DNA from: Nitrospiria bacterium
Lineage (GTDB): Bacteria; Nitrospirota; Nitrospiria; JACQBZ01
Reading direction: 5' to 3'
DNA: 33,003 nucleotides
Assembly: GCA_035498035.1 (NCBI GenBank)
Contig: DATKAN010000053.1
Span: forward strand, 1-33,003
A model generated the notes under the pieces. The model saw only the letters and a list, made by a program, of their open reading frames with translations, ran no database searches and had not been told where the DNA came from. This document shows positions 5,068-30,636 of the stretch, in pieces. Each line of letters begins with the position of its first letter. Position 1 is the stretch's first letter. Both the position numbers and the translations under genes were made by a program.

Positions 5068-6567
5068 TCACTTGATCTTATGCTGTGGGTCAAGGCCGGT
5101 CTTCGCGGGTTCCATGGAAGGTGGACTGTTCAACTCTTGGGGCTCACCGAGCAGAATGCCTTGGGCAAGGTAGGTCCCGGTTTCGTTCGCAACCCGTAAT
5201 TCCTTTTCGGTTTCGATCCCTTCGGAGATGATTCCTTCCTTGGAATAGTTTTTAAAAGCCAGGGTAAGATCTTTCAGAAAGCGGCCGAATTGCTCGGAGG
5301 ACGCGGCCTGGACGATCGCCGAACGGTCCAGCTTGATATAATCCGGAACAAGCTTGGCGACGAAGGCCAGGGAAATGAAACCCGCTCCAAAGTCGTCGAT
5401 GGCGAATTTATAGCCACGCGAGCGCCACTTCCGGGCGATTTCCAGATGGCGGTCGATGTCCAGCAGGGCTTCGGATTCCGAAATCTCCAGGATGACCTCC
5501 GGCCCCCGGAGCGGGGGAACGGTTTTGAATTCGCCGAGGACGCTGAAATCGACATTGATGAACACCTTTTTTAATCCAAGCGTCGCGGCGCGTTGGAGTT
5601 GCACATTCAAACAAAGCGTTTTGAGTTCTTTCAATTGGCCCACGGCCTGGTATCGTTTGAACAGCTGGGAGATTTCCAACTTTCCCTGGGGATCCCGGCT
5701 TAACGCCTCATAGCCGATAATTTGTGTTGTGCGTGTGTCGACGATGGGCTGAAACACGGTTTTAAGGGCGTCTTGATCGAGTCGATATTCCTCCTCCCCG
5801 ATGTGGACTTTATCTCCCCCCTTCTTGGCGATGTACAGCGCCCGGTCGGCCATCCGGATGAGTTCATTTGTACTTCGGCCGTGGTCGGGATACAAGGCGA
5901 CCCCGATGCTCAGGTCGAAGGGGGATTCTTCACCGGCCCCGGTCAGGCGCACCCTTTTCTCAATCCGTTCGGCGGCTACCAACACCCCTTCACGAGTACT
6001 ATTGGATAGGACGACCACCATTTCGTCTCCGCCCCACCGACAGACCAGGTCGATTCCACGGGTGGCCTCTTGAATCGCTTCCGCCACTTTTTTTAATGCC
6101 CGATCCCCCGCCTGATGTCCCTGCATGTCATTGATGGACTTGAAATTGTCGATGTCGCATAGCAAAATGGCCAAGGGCTGGGATTGGCGATCGGCGCGCT
6201 GGATTTCCTCCTTTATCCGTTCCTCGAAGTAATAACGATTGTATAGACCGGTGAGGTTATCCCGCATGGCGTGTACCTCGAATATACGCCTCATGCGCCG
6301 GAAAGCCCAACGGATATGCAGAACGTAAATCGTAAAGAGACAGGTCAGGATCAATAACCCGGCCAGGGCCTTGACCGTGGTGGACTGATAGTCGTTAAGA
6401 CTCGGCGACGACTCACTCAAATTGATCAGGTAGGTGCCGATGAGAATGCCGGCATAGAGCAACAATAGGCCCAGCGTCATGATCCAGAGTTGCGATTCTC
6501 TCCGCTCGATATTTCGGATATTATCTATAACGGTCTCTCCAGTGGGAATATTACTCGATGGCGTCAT
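5068..6567 (-). CDS. Membrane-anchored GGDEF-EAL cyclic-di-GMP enzyme
   Basis: A 499-aa protein with two membrane segments (about 27-49 and 65-86). A GGDEF domain follows, carrying DNLTGLYNR, LCDIDNFKSIND and the signature GGDEM at 179-183, where Met replaces Phe. Exactly five residues before it is an RxxD inhibitory site (RGID). The EAL domain has YEALSR (EAL at 287-289), FINVD, EISESE, DDFGAG, IKLDRS, EGIETE and AQG, so all metal- and substrate-binding positions look intact. It probably makes and/or degrades c-di-GMP in response to an unknown membrane or periplasmic cue; only a short loop lies between the membrane segments. GAGGAA upstream supports the ATG at 6567 over a TTG at 6594. Confidence 0.92.
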   Translation of the reverse strand: MTPSSNIPTGETVIDNIRNIERRESQLWIMTLGLLLLYAGILIGTYLINLSESSPSLNDYQSTTVKALAGLLILTCLFTIYVLHIRWAFRRMRRIFEVHAMRDNLTGLYNRYYFEERIKEEIQRADRQSQPLAILLCDIDNFKSINDMQGHQAGDRALKKVAEAIQEATRGIDLVCRWGGDEMVVVLSNSTREGVLVAAERIEKRVRLTGAGEESPFDLSIGVALYPDHGRSTNELIRMADRALYIAKKGGDKVHIGEEEYRLDQDALKTVFQPIVDTRTTQIIGYEALSRDPQGKLEISQLFKRYQAVGQLKELKTLCLNVQLQRAATLGLKKVFINVDFSVLGEFKTVPPLRGPEVILEISESEALLDIDRHLEIARKWRSRGYKFAIDDFGAGFISLAFVAKLVPDYIKLDRSAIVQAASSEQFGRFLKDLTLAFKNYSKEGIISEGIETEKELRVANETGTYLAQGILLGEPQELNSPPSMEPAKTGLDPQHKIK

Positions 6568-20818: not shown

Positions 20819-21250
20819 TTGCACGCACTCGGGAGGCATTTGCTGTTGGAGTTGAAGGTATGCAACTCCAAGGTGTTAAATGATCTGAAGAAGGTGCAAG
20901 AGATCATGGTCTCAGCCGCCAAGGAAGCCAAGGCCACCATCGTTGAGATCTCCTTCCACAAATTCAGTCCCTTTGGCATCAGCGGTGTGGTCGTTATCGC
21001 GGAGTCCCACATTTCGATTCACACTTGGCCCGAATACGGTTACGCGGCGATCGACATCTTCACCTGCGGCGATGTCCTCCAACCGGAAACGGCCGCGTCC
21101 CACCTGATCGAAAAGTTTCAATCGAAAGATCCGTCCATCGTTGAGCTGAAGCGCGGCGTCCTGATCCGCGGCGACATGAAACTCCCTCACAAACCCGTGA
21201 AAGAGGTCTTGGAATATGCCCGAACCAAAGAGCTACAAATGGTTCCTTGA
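20819..21250 (+). CDS. speD: S-adenosylmethionine decarboxylase proenzyme (SpeD, class 1b)
   Basis: A 143-aa precursor. Self-cleavage at Ser63 in AESHISIHTWPE yields the pyruvoyl cofactor; His68 and Cys83 (FTCGD) are the matching processing and catalytic residues, at the same numbers as in the Thermotoga enzyme. It makes decarboxylated SAM, the aminopropyl donor for polyamines. TTG start with AAAGGGGG ten bases upstream. Its last 35 bases overlap the speE start, implying translational coupling. The C-terminal tail is slightly extended beyond RGVLIRGD. Confidence 0.96.
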   Translation: MHALGRHLLLELKVCNSKVLNDLKKVQEIMVSAAKEAKATIVEISFHKFSPFGISGVVVIAESHISIHTWPEYGYAAIDIFTCGDVLQPETAASHLIEKFQSKDPSIVELKRGVLIRGDMKLPHKPVKEVLEYARTKELQMVP

Positions 21251-22136
21251 CTTTCTCACGCCCGACGAAGGCCACATGCATGGCGTGGAGACGATCCTCC
21301 ACGCCAAGCAGACCAAGTTCCAGCAGATGGAGATCATGCTCACCCGCAATTACGGGCGCTGCCTGGTCCTGGACGGCAAGATGCAGTCCAGCGAGTATGA
21401 CGAGTTCATCTACCACGAGGCCCTCGTCCATCCGGCCATGCTCACCCATCCCGATCCGAAGAAGGTGTTCATCGTCGGGGGAGGCGAAGGCGCCACCCTC
21501 CGCGAGATCCTTCGGCACAACTCGGTCGAGCAGGTCCTGATGGTGGATATCGATCAGGATGTCGTGGAAGCCTGCAAAACCTATCTGCCCGAGTGGCACC
21601 GGGGCTCCTTCGACGACCCGCGGGTGAAGCTCGAGTTCCGGGACGCGCGAAAATATCTGGAAGAGACCAAGGACGTCTACGACATCATCATCATCGACAT
21701 CTCGGAGCCGGTGGAAGAAGGTCCGGCCTATCTCCTCTACACGAAGGAGTTCTACCAGATCGTCATGAAACGCCTCAGCAAGAACGGCCTCATCTCGCTT
21801 CAGGCCGGGACCACGGCCTTGACGGCGCTGCTCTGCTTCTCGGCCGTGTACCAGACCCTCAAATCGGTTTTTCCCATCGTGCGGCCCTACCAGGCGATCA
21901 TCCCCTGCTTCGGATTGCCGTGGGGCTTCGCCCTGGCCTCCAAGCAGCTCGATCCGCAGAGCTTCTCCCAGGCCGAGATCGACAAGCGGATCGCCGAGCG
22001 CCTGAAAGGCGAACTGCAGTACTACAACGGCGAGATTCATCACGGCCAGTTTCTGTTGCCCAAACATATCCGGCAGCACGCGGAGCGCGAAACCCGGATC
22101 ATCGAGGACAACCATCCGCTGTTTACGTACACCTGA
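21216..22136 (+). CDS. speE: Aminopropyltransferase (spermidine/thermospermine synthase family)
   Basis: A 306-aa Rossmann-fold enzyme transferring aminopropyl from decarboxylated SAM to an amine. Motifs: LVLDGKMQSSEYDEFIYHEA, GGGEGATLREILRH, MVDIDQDVVEAC, FRDARKYL and DIIIIDISEPVEEGPAYLLY. In ordinary spermidine synthase the last motif reads like DSSDPVGPA followed by LF; here EEGPAYLLYTKEFY is closer to thermospermine synthase (ACL5) and archaeal enzymes. The acceptor could thus be putrescine, agmatine or spermidine. The ATG lies inside the end of speD. I keep the symbol speE for the family, with product specificity open. Confidence 0.9.
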   Translation: MPEPKSYKWFLDFLTPDEGHMHGVETILHAKQTKFQQMEIMLTRNYGRCLVLDGKMQSSEYDEFIYHEALVHPAMLTHPDPKKVFIVGGGEGATLREILRHNSVEQVLMVDIDQDVVEACKTYLPEWHRGSFDDPRVKLEFRDARKYLEETKDVYDIIIIDISEPVEEGPAYLLYTKEFYQIVMKRLSKNGLISLQAGTTALTALLCFSAVYQTLKSVFPIVRPYQAIIPCFGLPWGFALASKQLDPQSFSQAEIDKRIAERLKGELQYYNGEIHHGQFLLPKHIRQHAERETRIIEDNHPLFTYT

Positions 22137-22157
22137 TAAGGCGACCGCCGTTTCTCC

Positions 22158-23633
22158 ATGGACCCGGACGAACAACTGAGAACACCCCTCTTCGACGCGA
22201 TGGTGGCCCTGGCCGAATCGCGGAAGGTCTCGTTTCACACCCCCGGCCACAAGAGCGGAAAAGGCATCTCCACCCGTTTCCGGAAATTCGTCGGTCCCAA
22301 GATCTTCTCCATCGACCTCACCACGCTGGACGAGGTGGACTCGCTCCACAAGCCCCGGGGCGTGATCAAGGAGGCGCAGGAACTGGCGGCCCGCGCTTAC
22401 GGGGCGGACCGGTCATACTTCCTGGTGAACGGAACGACCGGCGGCAACCATGCGATGATCCTGGCCGCCTGCAACCCCGGCGACAGGATCCTCGTCGCCC
22501 GCAACGCGCACAAGTCGGTCATCGCGGGCGCCATTCTCAGCGGGGCGCAGCCGGTTTTTTTCCGTCCGGCGATCGACTCGCAGCTCAAACTCACGCGGAA
22601 CGTCACCTTCGAAGAGACCCGCGCGGCGATCGACGCCCATCCCGAGGCCAAGATCCTTTTCCTCACCAGCCCCAATTATTACGGGCTCTGCGCCGACCTG
22701 GAACGGATCATCCCCTACGCCCATGACCGCGGCCTGATCGTCCTTGTGGACGAGGCGCACGGACCGCATCTGCGCTTTCACAAAGAACTTCCCCCTTCGG
22801 CGGTTGAGATCGGCGCGGACCTCTGCGTCCAGAGCACCCACAAGATCATCGGCGGAATGACCCAGGCCTCGATGCTCCACGCCCGGGGGACCCGAATCGA
22901 TTTTCCCATGCTGACCAACGTTCTGCGCTTCGTGCAGACCACCAGCCCGTCCTACATCCTCATGGCCTCGCTGGACCTCGCGCGGATGCAGATGGCGACC
23001 GAGGGCGAAAAACTCCTGGACAAGGCCATCAGGCTCGCGCAGGAGGCGCGGACCCGCATCAACCGGATCCCAAATCTGTTCTGCTTCGGCGAAGAACAGG
23101 CGGGTCCCTTCGACATGACGAAACTGACGATCCGCGTCACGGCCCTGGGACTTTCGGGATACGAAGTATCCCGACGGCTCAACAGCCGCTACGGCATCCA
23201 GGTCGAGATGGCGGATGCCTTTCACATCCTGGTGATCGTGAGCATCGGAGACCGCCGGGACGATCTCGACCGCCTGGTCAAGGCCCTCAAGGAGATTGCG
23301 GGCGAGAACATCGGAAAGTTCTGGACGGCCGAGGCCCCCGACATCGCGGTCTTAAACTTCGAAAACGAGTCGCTGGCCACGCCCCGCGAAGCCTTTTTCG
23401 CCGATCATCATTATATTGCGCTGGAGGACGCCGCGGACGAGATCAGCTCCGAGATCGTCACGGTCTACCCGCCCGGGGTCCCGGTTCTCGTTCCCGGCGA
23501 ACGGATCAGCAAGGAAACGATCGACTACCTAAAACGCTCGTTAAAACTGGGCGGCACCGTGGACGGCCTGGACGAGACCAATCAATACATCGGGGTCGTC
23601 AAGCGCGGCTCCCTCCCGATCAAGAATTCCTGA
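22158..23633 (+). CDS. PLP-dependent Orn/Lys/Arg decarboxylase (fold I, biosynthetic)
   Basis: A 491-aa protein. FHTPGHKSGKG near 26-36 and the stretch NGTTGGNHAMILAA at 91-104 belong to the decarboxylase large domain; VDEAHGPHL at 197-205 and STHKIIGGMTQASML hold the PLP-binding Lys229. The C-terminal domain shows YPPGVPVLVPGERIS. Members include Bacillus SpeA (arginine decarboxylase) and lysine/ornithine decarboxylases; sequence alone does not separate them. Coupled to speD and speE it supplies putrescine or agmatine for aminopropylation. No agmatinase gene follows, mildly favouring ornithine unless those genes are elsewhere. Its stop abuts the opposite-strand stop of the transporter. Confidence 0.93.
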   Translation: MDPDEQLRTPLFDAMVALAESRKVSFHTPGHKSGKGISTRFRKFVGPKIFSIDLTTLDEVDSLHKPRGVIKEAQELAARAYGADRSYFLVNGTTGGNHAMILAACNPGDRILVARNAHKSVIAGAILSGAQPVFFRPAIDSQLKLTRNVTFEETRAAIDAHPEAKILFLTSPNYYGLCADLERIIPYAHDRGLIVLVDEAHGPHLRFHKELPPSAVEIGADLCVQSTHKIIGGMTQASMLHARGTRIDFPMLTNVLRFVQTTSPSYILMASLDLARMQMATEGEKLLDKAIRLAQEARTRINRIPNLFCFGEEQAGPFDMTKLTIRVTALGLSGYEVSRRLNSRYGIQVEMADAFHILVIVSIGDRRDDLDRLVKALKEIAGENIGKFWTAEAPDIAVLNFENESLATPREAFFADHHYIALEDAADEISSEIVTVYPPGVPVLVPGERISKETIDYLKRSLKLGGTVDGLDETNQYIGVVKRGSLPIKNS

Positions 23634-25759: not shown

Positions 25760-26356
25760 TTAGGATCCTAAGAACTTATCCACCGCCCTCTTGCCTCCGG
25801 TGAGTATCGAAGCGCCGTCTCCGACCAGGATGCTGTCGAAACGATAATTGAGCAGCACGCGGATTCCTTCCCGCGCCTTGGAGGGATCTTTGTATTTCTC
25901 GGGCGCCATTAGATTGAGACGACCGGGCGGTTTTCCGATCAAGGCATCGCCCAGGATCAAAGTCCCTTTGCCGCGGTCAAGAAACAGCGCCGATTCTCCC
26001 GGCGATTTGCCGTCCGGGATATGGATCGCCTTGAGGCTGCCCGGTAGGAGATCTCCATCTTTAAACGTGCGGTCTATTTTTATTTCCATGAGGGGGGCAT
26101 CCGCTTCCGGCGCCAGGACGGTCGTCTTGAACAATTTGCGATACGCTTCGGATTCGCGGACATGGTCGCGGTTGGTCAGAACGATGCAGTCGATCGGTCC
26201 AAGCTGTTGCAGCCGGGTCCGGTCGTCTTCGGGCATCGGCGGAGGATCGATCATCACCCGCTCGGCTCCGGAAACAACGAGGTGCCCGTTAAAATCGCAT
26301 CCCTTTTCCTGCGAGAACCAGGACCATTGATAAACGCCGGGGAGTATTTCTCTCAA
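25760..26356 (-). CDS. MBL-fold protein with degenerate metal site
   Basis: A 198-aa protein with the metallo-beta-lactamase fold layout: PGVYQWSWFS, the stretch NGHLVVSGAERVMIDPP, IVLTNRDHVRES, the segment PDGKSPGESALFL, GTLILGDALIG and SILVGDGAS. The canonical HxHxDH is replaced by TNRDH (61-65), keeping only Asp64 and His65. The following His positions in GHTPG and GHG are replaced by DGKSPG and GDG. It may bind one metal or none, and could be a non-hydrolytic or altered-specificity branch. TTG start with GAGGAGG eight bases upstream. It is downstream of rimO on the same strand but separated by nearly 400 bases with structured elements. Confidence 0.85.
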   Translation of the reverse strand: MREILPGVYQWSWFSQEKGCDFNGHLVVSGAERVMIDPPPMPEDDRTRLQQLGPIDCIVLTNRDHVRESEAYRKLFKTTVLAPEADAPLMEIKIDRTFKDGDLLPGSLKAIHIPDGKSPGESALFLDRGKGTLILGDALIGKPPGRLNLMAPEKYKDPSKAREGIRVLLNYRFDSILVGDGASILTGGKRAVDKFLGS

Positions 26357-26424
26357 TTCAAAGCCTCCTCAACCCATACAAACCCAACCGAGTTAATCAT
26401 TTGCGCGGGTCCTGTCCTGCGACA

Positions 26425-26482
26425 GCCCCACCGTGCTCGCCGCCCCGCCCGGTGTAGGGACCCCGTCTGCGCTCGGTGGGGC
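26425..26482. other. Hairpin with 9-bp stem upstream of the MBL-fold gene
   Basis: GCCCCACCG (26425-26433) and CGGTGGGGC (26474-26482) are exact complements enclosing 40 GC-rich bases. It sits about 70 bases before the MBL-fold start on the minus strand. There is no T-run. Confidence 0.45.
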
Positions 26483-26539
26483 GCCCCGTCTCCGGCCACC
26501 CGCGGGATGATACTCAGAAATGATCGTGTGTATTGACAT

Positions 26540-26726
26540 CACCCGCCGTTTGGCGCTGGGACCAAGAGGCGACTCGGCTTGCGTTTGGGGAACCCGGCTT
26601 GGAAAAGGACGCGGCCCGTCAGGGTAAATTTTCCGCAGAGCACCTTCGGAAAATTTAGCGGCCGAGCCTTAGCCGGGTCAAACGAAAGCCGCCGGAGCCG
26701 AAGGGCTCAGCGCCAGACGGCGGGTG
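26540..26726. repeat. Structured repeat element, copy 1 (covarying long hairpin)
   Basis: Outer stem of 19 bp: 26540-26558 with 26708-26726, all Watson-Crick but one G-U. Inside are stems CGGCTT/AAGCCG (26575-26580 / 26686-26691), CGTTTG/CAAACG (26582-26587 / 26679-26684), ACCCGGCT/AGCCGGGT (26592-26599 / 26671-26678), CGGCC/GGCCG (26612-26616 / 26660-26664) and AAATTTTCCG/CGGAAAATTT (26626-26635 / 26647-26656) with loop CAGAGCACCTT. The core at 26606-26673 matches the copy at 29550-29617 at 62 of 68 positions. It lies between rimO (stop at 26750) and the MBL-fold gene. The transcribed strand is unknown. Confidence 0.85.
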
Positions 26727-26749
26727 CCCACATCGGCCGTATTACGCCA

Positions 26750-28165
26750 TTATAAAACCTTCAACCCGGAGGGGCGACACGAAGCAGCTTTTATCTTTCC
26801 CGCAACCGGCCCGACAATATGCCCGACCAGATCGTGCTCGCCGGCCTGCGTGATCTCCACTTTCACGAAGTCCCCGGGGGAGGCTTCGCCGTCATTGATG
26901 TAAACCACGCCGTCGATCTCGGGCGCCTGGCCTTCCGTGCGGCCTTCGAGCAGCAAGTCGGTTTCGCGGGACGGGCCGTCCACCAACACGTCCTGGACGC
27001 TTCCGATCATCGCCGCATGTTTCTCCCGGACGATCCCGGACTGAAGGGCCAGTAATCTTTCCTGACGTTCGGCCTTGACCTCGGCCGGGACGGGATCTCC
27101 GAGCGGGAAAGCCGTCGTACCGTCTTCCCGGGAATACGTAAACACGCCCAGGCGGTCGAAGCGGATCTCGCGGATGAGGTCGGCGATCTCCTCGAACTGC
27201 CCCTCCGTCTCGCCCGGAAAACCGACGATGAAGGTGGACCGCAAGGTGACGCCCGGCACCTTCTCGCGGATTCGCCCGAGGAGAGTCCGGATCATCCGGC
27301 TCGATCCCTTCCGGTTCATCTTCCGGAGAATCGCGTCGTTGATATGCTGCAGCGGAAGATCGACGTAGTTGCAGATCTTCGGCTCGGCCGCCATGAATTC
27401 GAGCAGTTCATCGGTGAGATCGGTCGGGTAGGTGTAAAACAGACGGATCCGGCGGATCCCGTCGACGCCGACCAGGGGCCGCAGCAGCCCCATCAGCCCG
27501 TTCTTCTCCCGGCGGTCCCAGCCGAAGCTGGTGAGCGACTGCGCTATGAGGTTGAGCTCGACCACGCCCCGCCCGGCCAGTGAACGGGCCTCGGCCAGGA
27601 TATCGGCGACCTCGCGGCTCACCAGGTCGCCGCGGAAATTCGGGATGGCGCAGAACGAGCAGCGGTAGTTGCAGCCCTCCGAGACTTTCAGGTAGGCCCA
27701 GTGACGGGGGCTGAGCGTGAGCCGCGGCGTCGCGGCGTCGTAAAGCGCCGTGGGAGAGGCGGTCCAGACATGCTGTCTGCGCCCCCGACGGTTCCGGGCC
27801 AGCAGCGTCCGGCAGATCCCGGCGATTTTCGGGAAATCGCCCGTCCCGACCACCGCGTCCAGTTCCGGCAATTCGGACATCAGCTCCTTGGGATAGCGGT
27901 GGGCCAGACAGCCGGCCGCGATCAGGACACGGCAGTCGCCCTTCTTTTTATACCCCCCGAACTCGATGATCGCGTCGATCGACTCCCGCTTGGCCGCGTC
28001 GATGAAACCGCAGGTGTTGATCACGATCACCTCGGCTTTCTCCGTTTCCGATGTGAGCTCGAACCCGTCCTGAGAAAGTACCCCGAGCATCACCTCGGAA
28101 TCCACCTGGTTTTTCGGGCAGCCCAGATTGACCAGGCCGACTTTTACCTTATTCGGAGTTTTCAT
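26750..28165 (-). CDS. rimO: Ribosomal protein S12 methylthiotransferase RimO
   Basis: A 471-aa radical-SAM enzyme that methylthiolates an aspartate of ribosomal protein S12. The N-terminal UPF0004 domain holds the auxiliary cluster cysteines: Cys16 in NLGCPKNQVDSE (RimO hallmark), Cys52 in INTCGF and Cys86 in AAGCL. The SAM cluster is Cys165, 169 and 172 in SEGCNYRCSFCAIP. A TRAM domain follows (about 375-445). LIAQSLTSFGWD differs from the commoner LIAQDTT. A C-terminal tail of about 20 residues after the TRAM domain is unusual. The product is close to the family length of about 440-450 aa. Confidence 0.96.
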   Translation of the reverse strand: MKTPNKVKVGLVNLGCPKNQVDSEVMLGVLSQDGFELTSETEKAEVIVINTCGFIDAAKRESIDAIIEFGGYKKKGDCRVLIAAGCLAHRYPKELMSELPELDAVVGTGDFPKIAGICRTLLARNRRGRRQHVWTASPTALYDAATPRLTLSPRHWAYLKVSEGCNYRCSFCAIPNFRGDLVSREVADILAEARSLAGRGVVELNLIAQSLTSFGWDRREKNGLMGLLRPLVGVDGIRRIRLFYTYPTDLTDELLEFMAAEPKICNYVDLPLQHINDAILRKMNRKGSSRMIRTLLGRIREKVPGVTLRSTFIVGFPGETEGQFEEIADLIREIRFDRLGVFTYSREDGTTAFPLGDPVPAEVKAERQERLLALQSGIVREKHAAMIGSVQDVLVDGPSRETDLLLEGRTEGQAPEIDGVVYINDGEASPGDFVKVEITQAGEHDLVGHIVGPVAGKIKAASCRPSGLKVL

Positions 28166-28205
28166 GAAATCCCGGAATTATTTTCATTGTTATACTTTAC
28201 GGACG

Positions 28206-29414
28206 TCATTCCGACGGGAGACCCCCCTTGAACACGCTCAGGCCCTTCGTGGTTCCGAACCAACGACGGCCCTTTTTGTCGAACAGCATCGAGAAGACAT
28301 AGTCGTCCAGGAGACCCCGGGAGGTGTTGATGTTCCTCCAGCGCGTCCCATCGAACCAGCTGGCGCCGCCGTTGGTTCCGGCCCAGACATGCCCTTCACG
28401 GTCCGCGGCCATCGTAAAGACAAAATCCCCCCCCAGTCCGTCCCGGACGGTGTAATTTTTCCAGGCGCTCCCGTCGAAGCTCGCGACGCCGCCCCCCCAG
28501 GTTCCGAACCATCTTCGATTCCGGTCGTCGACCAGGGAGGAAATGATAAAATCGGGGTTGGGGCCGGCGTTCTGTTTTCCCATGTTCATGTGGTGTTGGA
28601 GAAACGAGGAGCCGTAGCCGCTCCCGGGTCCTCCCTCCGTTTCCTCCGGGGCCGGAAACGGAGAGGCCGGCCGGCTCCCGGCGGGGTTCTCGCCGATCTC
28701 CCCCCCGACGCCGTCCTTGTGGGAAAAGGTCCTCCAGGATTTCCCGTCGAAGCGGCTGATCCCGGCCTCGGTCCCGAACCAGAACACCCCGTCCCGGTCG
28801 TAAGCGATGGAGTAAACCCATTTATCGGGCAGCCCGTCGGCCACGCGATAGGTCTTGAACTTCTCCCCCTCCAACACGCTCACCCCGTTCCAGGTCGCGA
28901 CCCACATTTTCCCATCGCGGTCGTACTTGATGTCGTAGACCCAGTTGTCCCCCAGACCATCCTCGGTCGAAAAACGTTTCCAGGACTTCCCGTCATAGCG
29001 CGAGAGCCCGCCGCCGTAGGTTCCCACCCATTTATTCCCCTTGGGGTCCACCGAGAGGATGTAGACCGCCCGGGCGATAAAGCCCCCCTCCGTGTTGGCC
29101 GGCGTATAAATTTCGACCTCCCGCTTCGTGATATCAAAACGGATGATCCCCTTCATCGTGCCCATCCAGAGATTATCCCCGTCCAAGGCCATGGACCGAA
29201 CGGGAGTATCGTGGGTGCTGAACTCCGCCCAGACGATGGCTCCGGAAGGCGGCGTCGAAGCGACAACGTCATGTTCCGATGAACGTCCCCCGACGCAGGC
29301 CGCGAGCAGCAAAAGCCAAAGCGCCGAGACGAGTCGTATCCCCCGACCGGGCCTATTGAACCTCATCGCACGGACCCCAAGGGGAGCATTGGCTTTCCGT
29401 CGTGTTGATTTCAT
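28206..29414 (-). CDS. Seven-repeat propeller lipoprotein (two-component-regulator-propeller type)
   Basis: An exported protein of about 402 aa. The signal LVSALWLLLLAAC ends in a lipobox Cys. Seven blades follow, each with a (K/R)WxGTxxG(L)SxxDG pattern: LWMGTMKGIIRFD, KWVGTYGGGLSRYDG, MWVATWNGVSVLEG, FWFGTEAGISRFDG, RWFGTWGGGVASFDG, VWAGTNGGASWFDG and RWFGTTKGLSVFKG. This is the Reg_prop repeat found in the sensor halves of hybrid histidine kinases; here no kinase is attached, so it is a free sensor or scaffold. A Gly/Pro-rich insertion of about 60 residues separates blades 4 and 5. GAAGG supports the ATG at 29414; an ATG at 29366 would give a more standard 24-residue signal. Confidence 0.88.
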   Translation of the reverse strand: MKSTRRKANAPLGVRAMRFNRPGRGIRLVSALWLLLLAACVGGRSSEHDVVASTPPSGAIVWAEFSTHDTPVRSMALDGDNLWMGTMKGIIRFDITKREVEIYTPANTEGGFIARAVYILSVDPKGNKWVGTYGGGLSRYDGKSWKRFSTEDGLGDNWVYDIKYDRDGKMWVATWNGVSVLEGEKFKTYRVADGLPDKWVYSIAYDRDGVFWFGTEAGISRFDGKSWRTFSHKDGVGGEIGENPAGSRPASPFPAPEETEGGPGSGYGSSFLQHHMNMGKQNAGPNPDFIISSLVDDRNRRWFGTWGGGVASFDGSAWKNYTVRDGLGGDFVFTMAADREGHVWAGTNGGASWFDGTRWRNINTSRGLLDDYVFSMLFDKKGRRWFGTTKGLSVFKGGLPSE

Positions 29415-29480
29415 AAAGACCTTCATGATAGCATAAGCTCAATTGCCGGGGCAAAGAAGTTTTGATCCGCACGAAAGTGG

Positions 29481-29675
29481 CATCGGCCAGCCGTTCGGTC
29501 TTAGCCCGAGGCGCGACCTCGGCTGAGATTTGGGCACCTTGCTTGGCGAAGGACGCGGCCCGTTAGGGCCAATTTTCCGCAGAGCCTCTTCGGAAAATTG
29601 AGCGGCCGAGCCTTAGCAAGGTCAAATCACAGCCGCCGGAGCAGCGAGGACTGAGCCGAACAGGCCTCGCCGATG
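29481..29675. repeat. Structured repeat element, copy 2 (covarying long hairpin)
   Basis: The outer helix is CATCGGC/GCCGATG (29481-29487 / 29669-29675) plus GTTCGG/CCGAAC. Inner stems match copy 1 in order: CGGCTG/CAGCCG (29520-29525 / 29630-29635), GATTTG/CAAATC (29527-29532 / 29623-29628), ACCTTGCT/AGCAAGGT (29536-29543 / 29615-29622), CGGCC/GGCCG (29556-29560 / 29604-29608) and CAATTTTCCG/CGGAAAATTG (29570-29579 / 29591-29600) with loop CAGAGCCTCTT. The element ends 16 bases before the trxB ATG. On the other strand it precedes the propeller lipoprotein gene by about 65 bases. Confidence 0.85.
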
Positions 29676-29691
29676 TAATTGGCAGGTATAA

Positions 29692-30636
29692 ATGAGGAAT
29701 TCGACCAGTCCCAATGGTGTGCGCGACGTCATCATCATGGGCTCCGGGCCGGCCGGCCTGACGGCCGCGCTCTACGCCGCGCGGGCCGACCTGAAGCCGC
29801 TCCTGATCGAGGGAACCCAGGCGGGCGGCCAGCTCATGATCACGACGGACGTCGAGAACTACCCCGGATTTCCGGAAGGGATCCTGGGTCCGGAGCTCAT
29901 GAAACAGATGCGCGCGCAGGCCGAGCGCTTCGGGACGGAACTCGTCCGGGGGGACATCACCGCGGTCGACCTGAAAAAAACCCCGTTTCTTCTGACGGCC
30001 GAGGAGGGAACGTATTCCACCCGATCCTTGATCATCGCCTCCGGCGCCTCGGCCAAGCTGCTGAATCTTCCCTCCGAGCGGCGGCTGATGGGCCACGGCG
30101 TTTCGGCCTGCGCCACCTGCGACGGATTTTTCTTCCGCGGTAAAGAGGTCCTCGTGATCGGCGGGGGGGACACCGCCATGGAGGAGGCGACCTTCCTTAC
30201 CAAGTTCGCCTCCAAGGTCACGATCGTCCATCGCCGGGACAAGTTCCGCTGCTCCAAAATCATGGAGGGCCGGGCCCGGGGCAATCGACAGATCGGGATC
30301 ATCTGGGACACCGTGGTCGAGGAAATTCTGGGCGATCCCGTCGTCACCGGCGCGCGGCTCAAGAACGTGAAGACCGGAAAAGTCACCGAAATGAAGATCG
30401 ACGGCGTGTTCGTGGCGATCGGGCATGAGCCCAACACGAAGCTTTTCGCCGGCCAACTACAGATGGACGAGCGGGGCTACATCGTCACGAAAAAAGAAAC
30501 GACCGAAACCTCGGTCCCGGGCGTGTTCGCGGCGGGAGACGTCCAGGACCCCCGCTATCGCCAGGCCGTCACGGCAGCCGGAACCGGATGCATGGCCGCG
30601 ATCGATGCCGAAAAATATATCGAGAGCCTCCATTAA
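29692..30636 (+). CDS. trxB: Thioredoxin reductase
   Basis: A 314-aa flavoprotein. FAD-binding [15 protein letters not shown] (17-31), redox pair CATC at 140-143, NADPH-binding [15 protein letters not shown] near 155-169 followed by VHRRDKFR, and the closing FAD motif [20 protein letters not shown]. It transfers electrons from NADPH via FAD to thioredoxin in the cytoplasm. The ribosome site (AGG at about -10) is weak and lies just beyond structured element copy 2, so that fold could influence access to the start. The AI-2E-type permease gene follows 71 bases later on the same strand. Confidence 0.96.

Follow-up and report, generated by a model that had tools for sequence, protein, structure and literature searches.

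Two intergenic stretches of about 190 nucleotides (nt) on contig DATKAN010000053.1 of a Nitrospiria bacterium (GenBank assembly GCA_035498035.1) resemble each other in predicted fold more than in sequence, which raises the question of whether the fold itself is conserved and, if so, what kind of element carries it. Here, the window is the whole 33,003-nt stretch that was analysed. Genomes are referred to by labels, with G000 denoting the source genome, and L numbers denote individual loci.

To assess whether the two hairpins are real, we folded each copy alone and mapped both onto the consensus structure. The observation made in the sequence-only reading holds: both copies lie where it placed them, and they reach fold energies of -114.9 and -104.1 kcal/mol, with none of 200 dinucleotide shuffles folding as well. 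On the consensus structure, copies 1 and 2 differ by exactly six two-sided compensatory changes (TA>GC, CG>GC, GC>AT, CG>TA, GC>TA and AT>CG), the number that reading had counted by eye. Two further changes are GT>GC and one pair that is mismatched (A/G) in copy 1 and C-G in copy 2. The shared core has 61 of 67 identities by our bounds, compared with 62 of 68 in the earlier count; both give six mismatches. The 11-nt loop (CAGAGCACCTT in copy 1, CAGAGCCTCTT in copy 2), which had been placed at the end of the core, is instead apical and lies in its middle. The earlier reading also missed a side hairpin (P2), which makes the structure a three-way junction, and the number of copies. Copy 1 lies 24 nt downstream of the stop codon of rimO (domains Radical_SAM, UPF0004 and TRAM), and copy 2 lies between divergent genes, 16 nt before the trxB ATG.

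To determine how many copies exist, we searched the source genome and its relatives, as the sequence-only reading had proposed, using covariance models. The two copies are not a pair. Model R1, built from 15 copies of the source genome (alignment A2; 44 pairs, 16 with two-sided changes), found 17 copies at E < 1e-6 in the 2.67-Mb source genome. In the close family, R1 found 8 copies in G001, 3 in G002, 7 in G006 (GenBank MAG JACQHO01, a 'Nitrospirae bacterium') and none in G003, G004 and G005, although G005 keeps a 41-nt fragment. R1 also found divergent members elsewhere in the phylum. Model R2, built only from 16 of these, hit 89 of 396 sampled genomes of the phylum Nitrospirota, in 57 of 169 genera. 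Only seven candidates per genome were scored in that scan, and counts from large scans are lower bounds; the genomes are mostly MAGs, the E-values are roughly calibrated, and other phyla were not searched. With fuller scoring of 15 genomes, G126 had 25 matches (several of them only the apical hairpin), G143 had 17, G271 had 15 and G316 had 12; full-length copies reach about 17 in a genome.

Table 1 Features of the two hairpin copies and nearby sequence in the window
Position	Strand	Feature	Context	Support
26540-26726	+	Element copy 1 (whole hairpin)	Between rimO (26750-28165, -) and the MBL-fold gene (25760-26356, -)	Fold z -8.64; 15 related loci in own genome by BLAST; R1 143 bits; orthologous copy at the same place in congener G001 (L180)
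26569-26698	+	Conserved inner ~130 nt of copy 1 (GCGAC...GGAGC)	Part modelled by R1	Alignment A2 of 15 own-genome copies
26614-26625	+	P2 side hairpin of copy 1 (GCCC...GGGT)		Read from the sequence; helix conserved while its loop changes length in other copies
26626-26656	+	P3 apical hairpin of copy 1	Loop at 26636-26646	All 10 pairs of this helix have two-sided changes in 52 sequences
29481-29675	+	Element copy 2 (whole hairpin)	Between the propeller gene (28206-29426, -) and trxB (29692-30636, +); absent from the orthologous site in G001, G002, G003 and G005	Fold z -6.63; R1 146.6 bits; site comparison
29513-29642	+	Conserved inner ~130 nt of copy 2		Alignment A2; R1 search
29558-29569	+	P2 side hairpin of copy 2 (GCCC...GGGC)		Read from the sequence; alignments, as for copy 1
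29570-29600	+	P3 apical hairpin of copy 2	Loop at 29580-29590	Read from the sequence; alignment of 52 sequences
26403-26504		Repeat B, a second dispersed palindromic repeat		See text
20819-23633		Polyamine gene cluster: AdoMet decarboxylase-like, spermidine synthase-like and Orn/Lys/Arg decarboxylase-like ORFs in a row		By eye, without a database search

Read 5' to 3' on the plus strand, the element begins with an outer stem (P1) of variable sequence, followed by a conserved stem with internal loops (TTTTGGG-NN-CC ... GG-U-CAAAA) that includes a G-U wobble kept in 59 of 63 sequences. Next come TTGGCGAAGG opposite GAGCCTTAG, the side hairpin P2 of very variable length, and the apical hairpin P3. 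Outside the window's family, P3 carries the internal loop ACUGUYUGAG / CGAGUUU around a small hairpin; in the window's family this has shrunk to the 11-nt loop. A sister architecture of about 135 nt (L364-L374, in G182, G294, G086 and G126) has the same apical ACTGTCTGAG/CGAGTTT module but a different stem (GCGACCGAG ... GACCGAGCG) and no P2. In G126, it lies about 85 nt upstream of the main element in inverted orientation.

To test whether the fold is under selection, we counted two-sided compensatory changes in 68 distinct sequences. Of 43 pairs, 41 showed such changes and 93.5% of cells were paired, compared with at most 53% when partners were slid. There were 699 compensatory cells against 204 expected from shuffling, and none of 500 shuffles reached the observed values. 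This alignment (A6) was fitted to model R2, which leans towards the structure; however, two alignments made by sequence alone agree, namely A2 and a MAFFT alignment (A5) of the 16 sequences from outside the window's family, in which 29 of 43 pairs are compensatory. Outside the one invariant wobble, G-U cells outnumber A-C cells 151 to 40 on the plus strand (3.8:1, whereas base composition predicts only about 1.26:1), and 27 pairs favour G-U against 6 that favour A-C (sign test, P = 0.0003). The plus strand is therefore the one whose pairing matters, although this does not by itself separate RNA from single-stranded DNA. Folding energy also favoured the plus strand (68 of 70 copies more stable), but we discarded this measure because shuffled sequences show nearly the same bias, so it is largely compositional.

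A match to a known Rfam or transposon family, non-compensatory stem changes in further copies, or a lack of conservation beyond this genome had been named in advance as grounds for rejecting the idea. No Rfam 15 family matched at gathering thresholds, and relaxed searches (E up to 10 for the members scanned that way) gave only chance hits such as SNORD35 (E 0.39). Transposon collections such as ISfinder were not searched, so the first of these points is only half examined. Further copies are compensatory, and conservation extends far beyond this genome. Literature searches, limited to open-access text, found no description of such a family. An exact-pattern scan of genome contigs was too lax: of 37 returned loci re-scored with the model, only two were real, both from MAG JACQHO01. 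Viral contigs held no copies, with one chance pattern match (L363) that R2 does not confirm, and searches of phages and plasmids found none. A protein-coding reading of copy L015 had no support, as it offers only a 96-amino-acid frame and lies between a DNA ligase and a helicase gene. Integron attC sites were rejected from the anatomy, since the copies are not in cassette arrays.

To understand how the element is distributed, we compared its sites within and between genomes. In the source genome all copies are intergenic, and the flanking genes are diverse: rimO, an MBL-fold gene, a UPF0182 gene, DAP epimerase and two nuo-operon spacers. Across 110 loci, no protein family recurs beside the element except orthologues, incidental matches and ORFs inside the element. 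Sites are gained or lost between species. Copy 1 is shared with G001, but the trxB site of copy 2 holds no hairpin in four relatives. Two copies sit in consecutive spacers of the nuo operon (L241; G000 C25:1-6500), either side of nuoL and both in the sense orientation. The nuoK-nuoL copy (L002) is missing from the congeners G001, where a different repeat (B) sits, and G002, where the flanks are 89–90% identical and almost nothing lies between them. Repeat B is about 135 bp long, with ends CGGCGGGTCCTGTCC... and ...CACCCGCCG and a variable interior; it has 22 matches in G000 and 31 in G001 and also occurs in G006 (L253, L256, L257 and others). Several hairpin copies (L001, L002, L005 and L013) lie next to it or apparently inside it.

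In G316, seven close copies share ends GAGGCTGTTGCCG ... CGGCAACAAGCTC, with small variations, in mostly unrelated flanks, and two further subfamilies in the same genome have different ends. Two identical copies in direct orientation flank a Mutator-family (IS256-like) transposase gene (L317:2171-3802, on G316 C25), with further inverted repeats outside them, so some spread there may be hitch-hiking. No target-site duplication was visible by eye at the G316 ends, and the empty sites in relatives are too diverged for base-exact boundaries, which leaves this feature undecided. The same is true of terminal inverted repeats, which are shared within a subfamily but not between subfamilies or genomes. 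Some sites, by contrast, are stable within genera (G196/G221, G059/G084 and G158/G240); in G196, copies at 537037-537202 and 538945-539107 flank an argH-like gene.

The interpretation in the sequence-only reading, that the fold rather than the primary sequence is conserved and that the element is undescribed in Rfam, is supported. Of the three options it offered (a multi-copy ncRNA, a cis-regulator or a non-autonomous hairpin transposon), the last fits the copy-number and insertion data best. With moderate confidence, we interpret each copy as a member of a phylum-wide family of non-autonomous, dispersed intergenic elements kept by selection on the plus-strand fold, whose function is still unknown. 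Our data show directly that this fold is kept by compensatory change over phylum-level divergence, that copies are gained or lost at given sites between species, and that expansions are lineage-specific. We infer, beyond this, that the folded plus strand, either RNA or single-stranded DNA during replication, is recognized by a trans-acting protein that spreads the element without long target duplications, and that spread is self-serving. No mobilizing enzyme was identified: the Y1 transposase (PF01797), the obvious REP-type enzyme, is absent from the carriers G086 (100% complete) and G310 but present in the non-carriers G003 and G004, so it does not track the element. Repeat B, which several copies adjoin in genomes of the window's family, could also be the real vehicle. 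Recognition by the inferred trans-acting protein would be by the conserved interior fold rather than by terminal sequence, because the terminal sequences differ between subfamilies even within one genome. Host genes would not be the target, and intergenic insertions would survive because they are tolerated.

The main alternative, which we regard as possible but less likely, is a host-serving multi-copy ncRNA, transcribed from the plus strand and acting in trans (for example, as a protein-binding sponge), with turnover by ordinary gene birth and loss. Consistent with this are the conserved unpaired motifs, the apical internal loop conserved in most lineages, the plus-strand G-U excess and the stable loci within some genera. 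However, there are no full copies in G003–G005, which are 95–96% complete, or in most of the phylum sample, and copy number varies from 0 to about 17 or more. No promoter is evidently attached, as the only two promoter-like hits in the 3.6-kb region are on the minus strand; transcription itself was not measured. This option is not excluded and may be the same thing as the preferred one, namely a mobile element whose active form is the structured plus-strand RNA.

A repeat of known type (REP/BIME or MITE), whose arms stay complementary passively through hairpin-templated correction or conversion between copies, seems unlikely as the whole explanation. Such homogenization contributes at least locally. 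Between orthologous copies, two-sided changes outnumber one-sided intermediates 34 to 12 (with 24 pairs gained or lost), and adjacent double changes occur (ACCCGGCT to ACCTTGCT in copy 2). In G221, two paralogues (L318:2315-2479 and 5209-5378) have identical apical hairpins but different stems, suggesting exchange of the apical module; copies 2 and 3 there are directly abutting. However, templated correction would erase non-complementary features, yet the G-U wobble, specific bulges and the apical internal loop persist across genera, and the strand-specific G-U excess is not expected from a symmetric DNA process.

A cis-acting role (terminator, mRNA stabilizer or riboswitch) is unlikely: although copies are often close to gene 3' ends (median 43 nt, against 80 nt to 5' ends) and copy 2 is close to the trxB start, gene contexts vary (50 tandem, 18 divergent and 14 convergent), the plus strand in tandem contexts is antisense 35 times and sense 15 times (P = 0.007; suggestive only, as ORF calls there are crude), neighbouring genes are unrelated, orthologous genes lack the element, the nuo-operon copies make strong termination there implausible, and the window copies have no T run at the hairpin base (some divergent members in other families do).

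We also compared the element with known systems. REP/BIME/REPIN elements, mobilized by RAYT (Y1) transposases (PMC3116915), are likewise multi-copy intergenic palindromes, often near gene 3' ends, with lineage-specific expansion. The present element is far longer (~160–200 nt, with a three-way junction), and its interior is conserved while its ends vary, the reverse of REPINs, which have a short (20–40 nt) conserved REP at the ends and a variable spacer. MITEs are also short, non-coding, terminally complementary and polymorphically inserted; here, no terminal sequence is common to all subfamilies, the structure is kept by covariation with conserved mismatched motifs, and no parent element was found. 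HEARO and omega RNAs of IS200/IS605-type elements are ORF-less, structured RNA-like elements scattered in many copies, but the Rfam searches gave no such match and no recurrent nuclease or transposase gene lies within 1.5 kb. Large structured bacterial ncRNA classes found by comparative genomics (for example, PMC2864571) share strong covariation, conserved loops and intergenic location, but the present family has many variable copies per genome, with turnover, and no match in Rfam 15. A more speculative possibility, which we consider unlikely although the evidence does not rule it out, is a new class of RNA-centred mobile element. Here, the folded plus-strand RNA (or its single-stranded DNA form) would itself be what a dedicated, still unknown, trans-acting machinery recognizes and spreads, with no terminal-sequence requirement, and it would have persisted throughout a phylum as several hairpin architectures sharing the apical ACUGUYUGAG/CGAGUUU module.

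A family found in about a third of the sampled genera of a phylum, including several single-contig and near-complete genomes, with nearly every pair covarying and no Rfam entry, would be a sizeable gap in the catalogue of bacterial structured elements. It inverts the usual rule for small mobile repeats, where the ends are conserved and the middle drifts, and so raises a testable question of what recognizes the fold.
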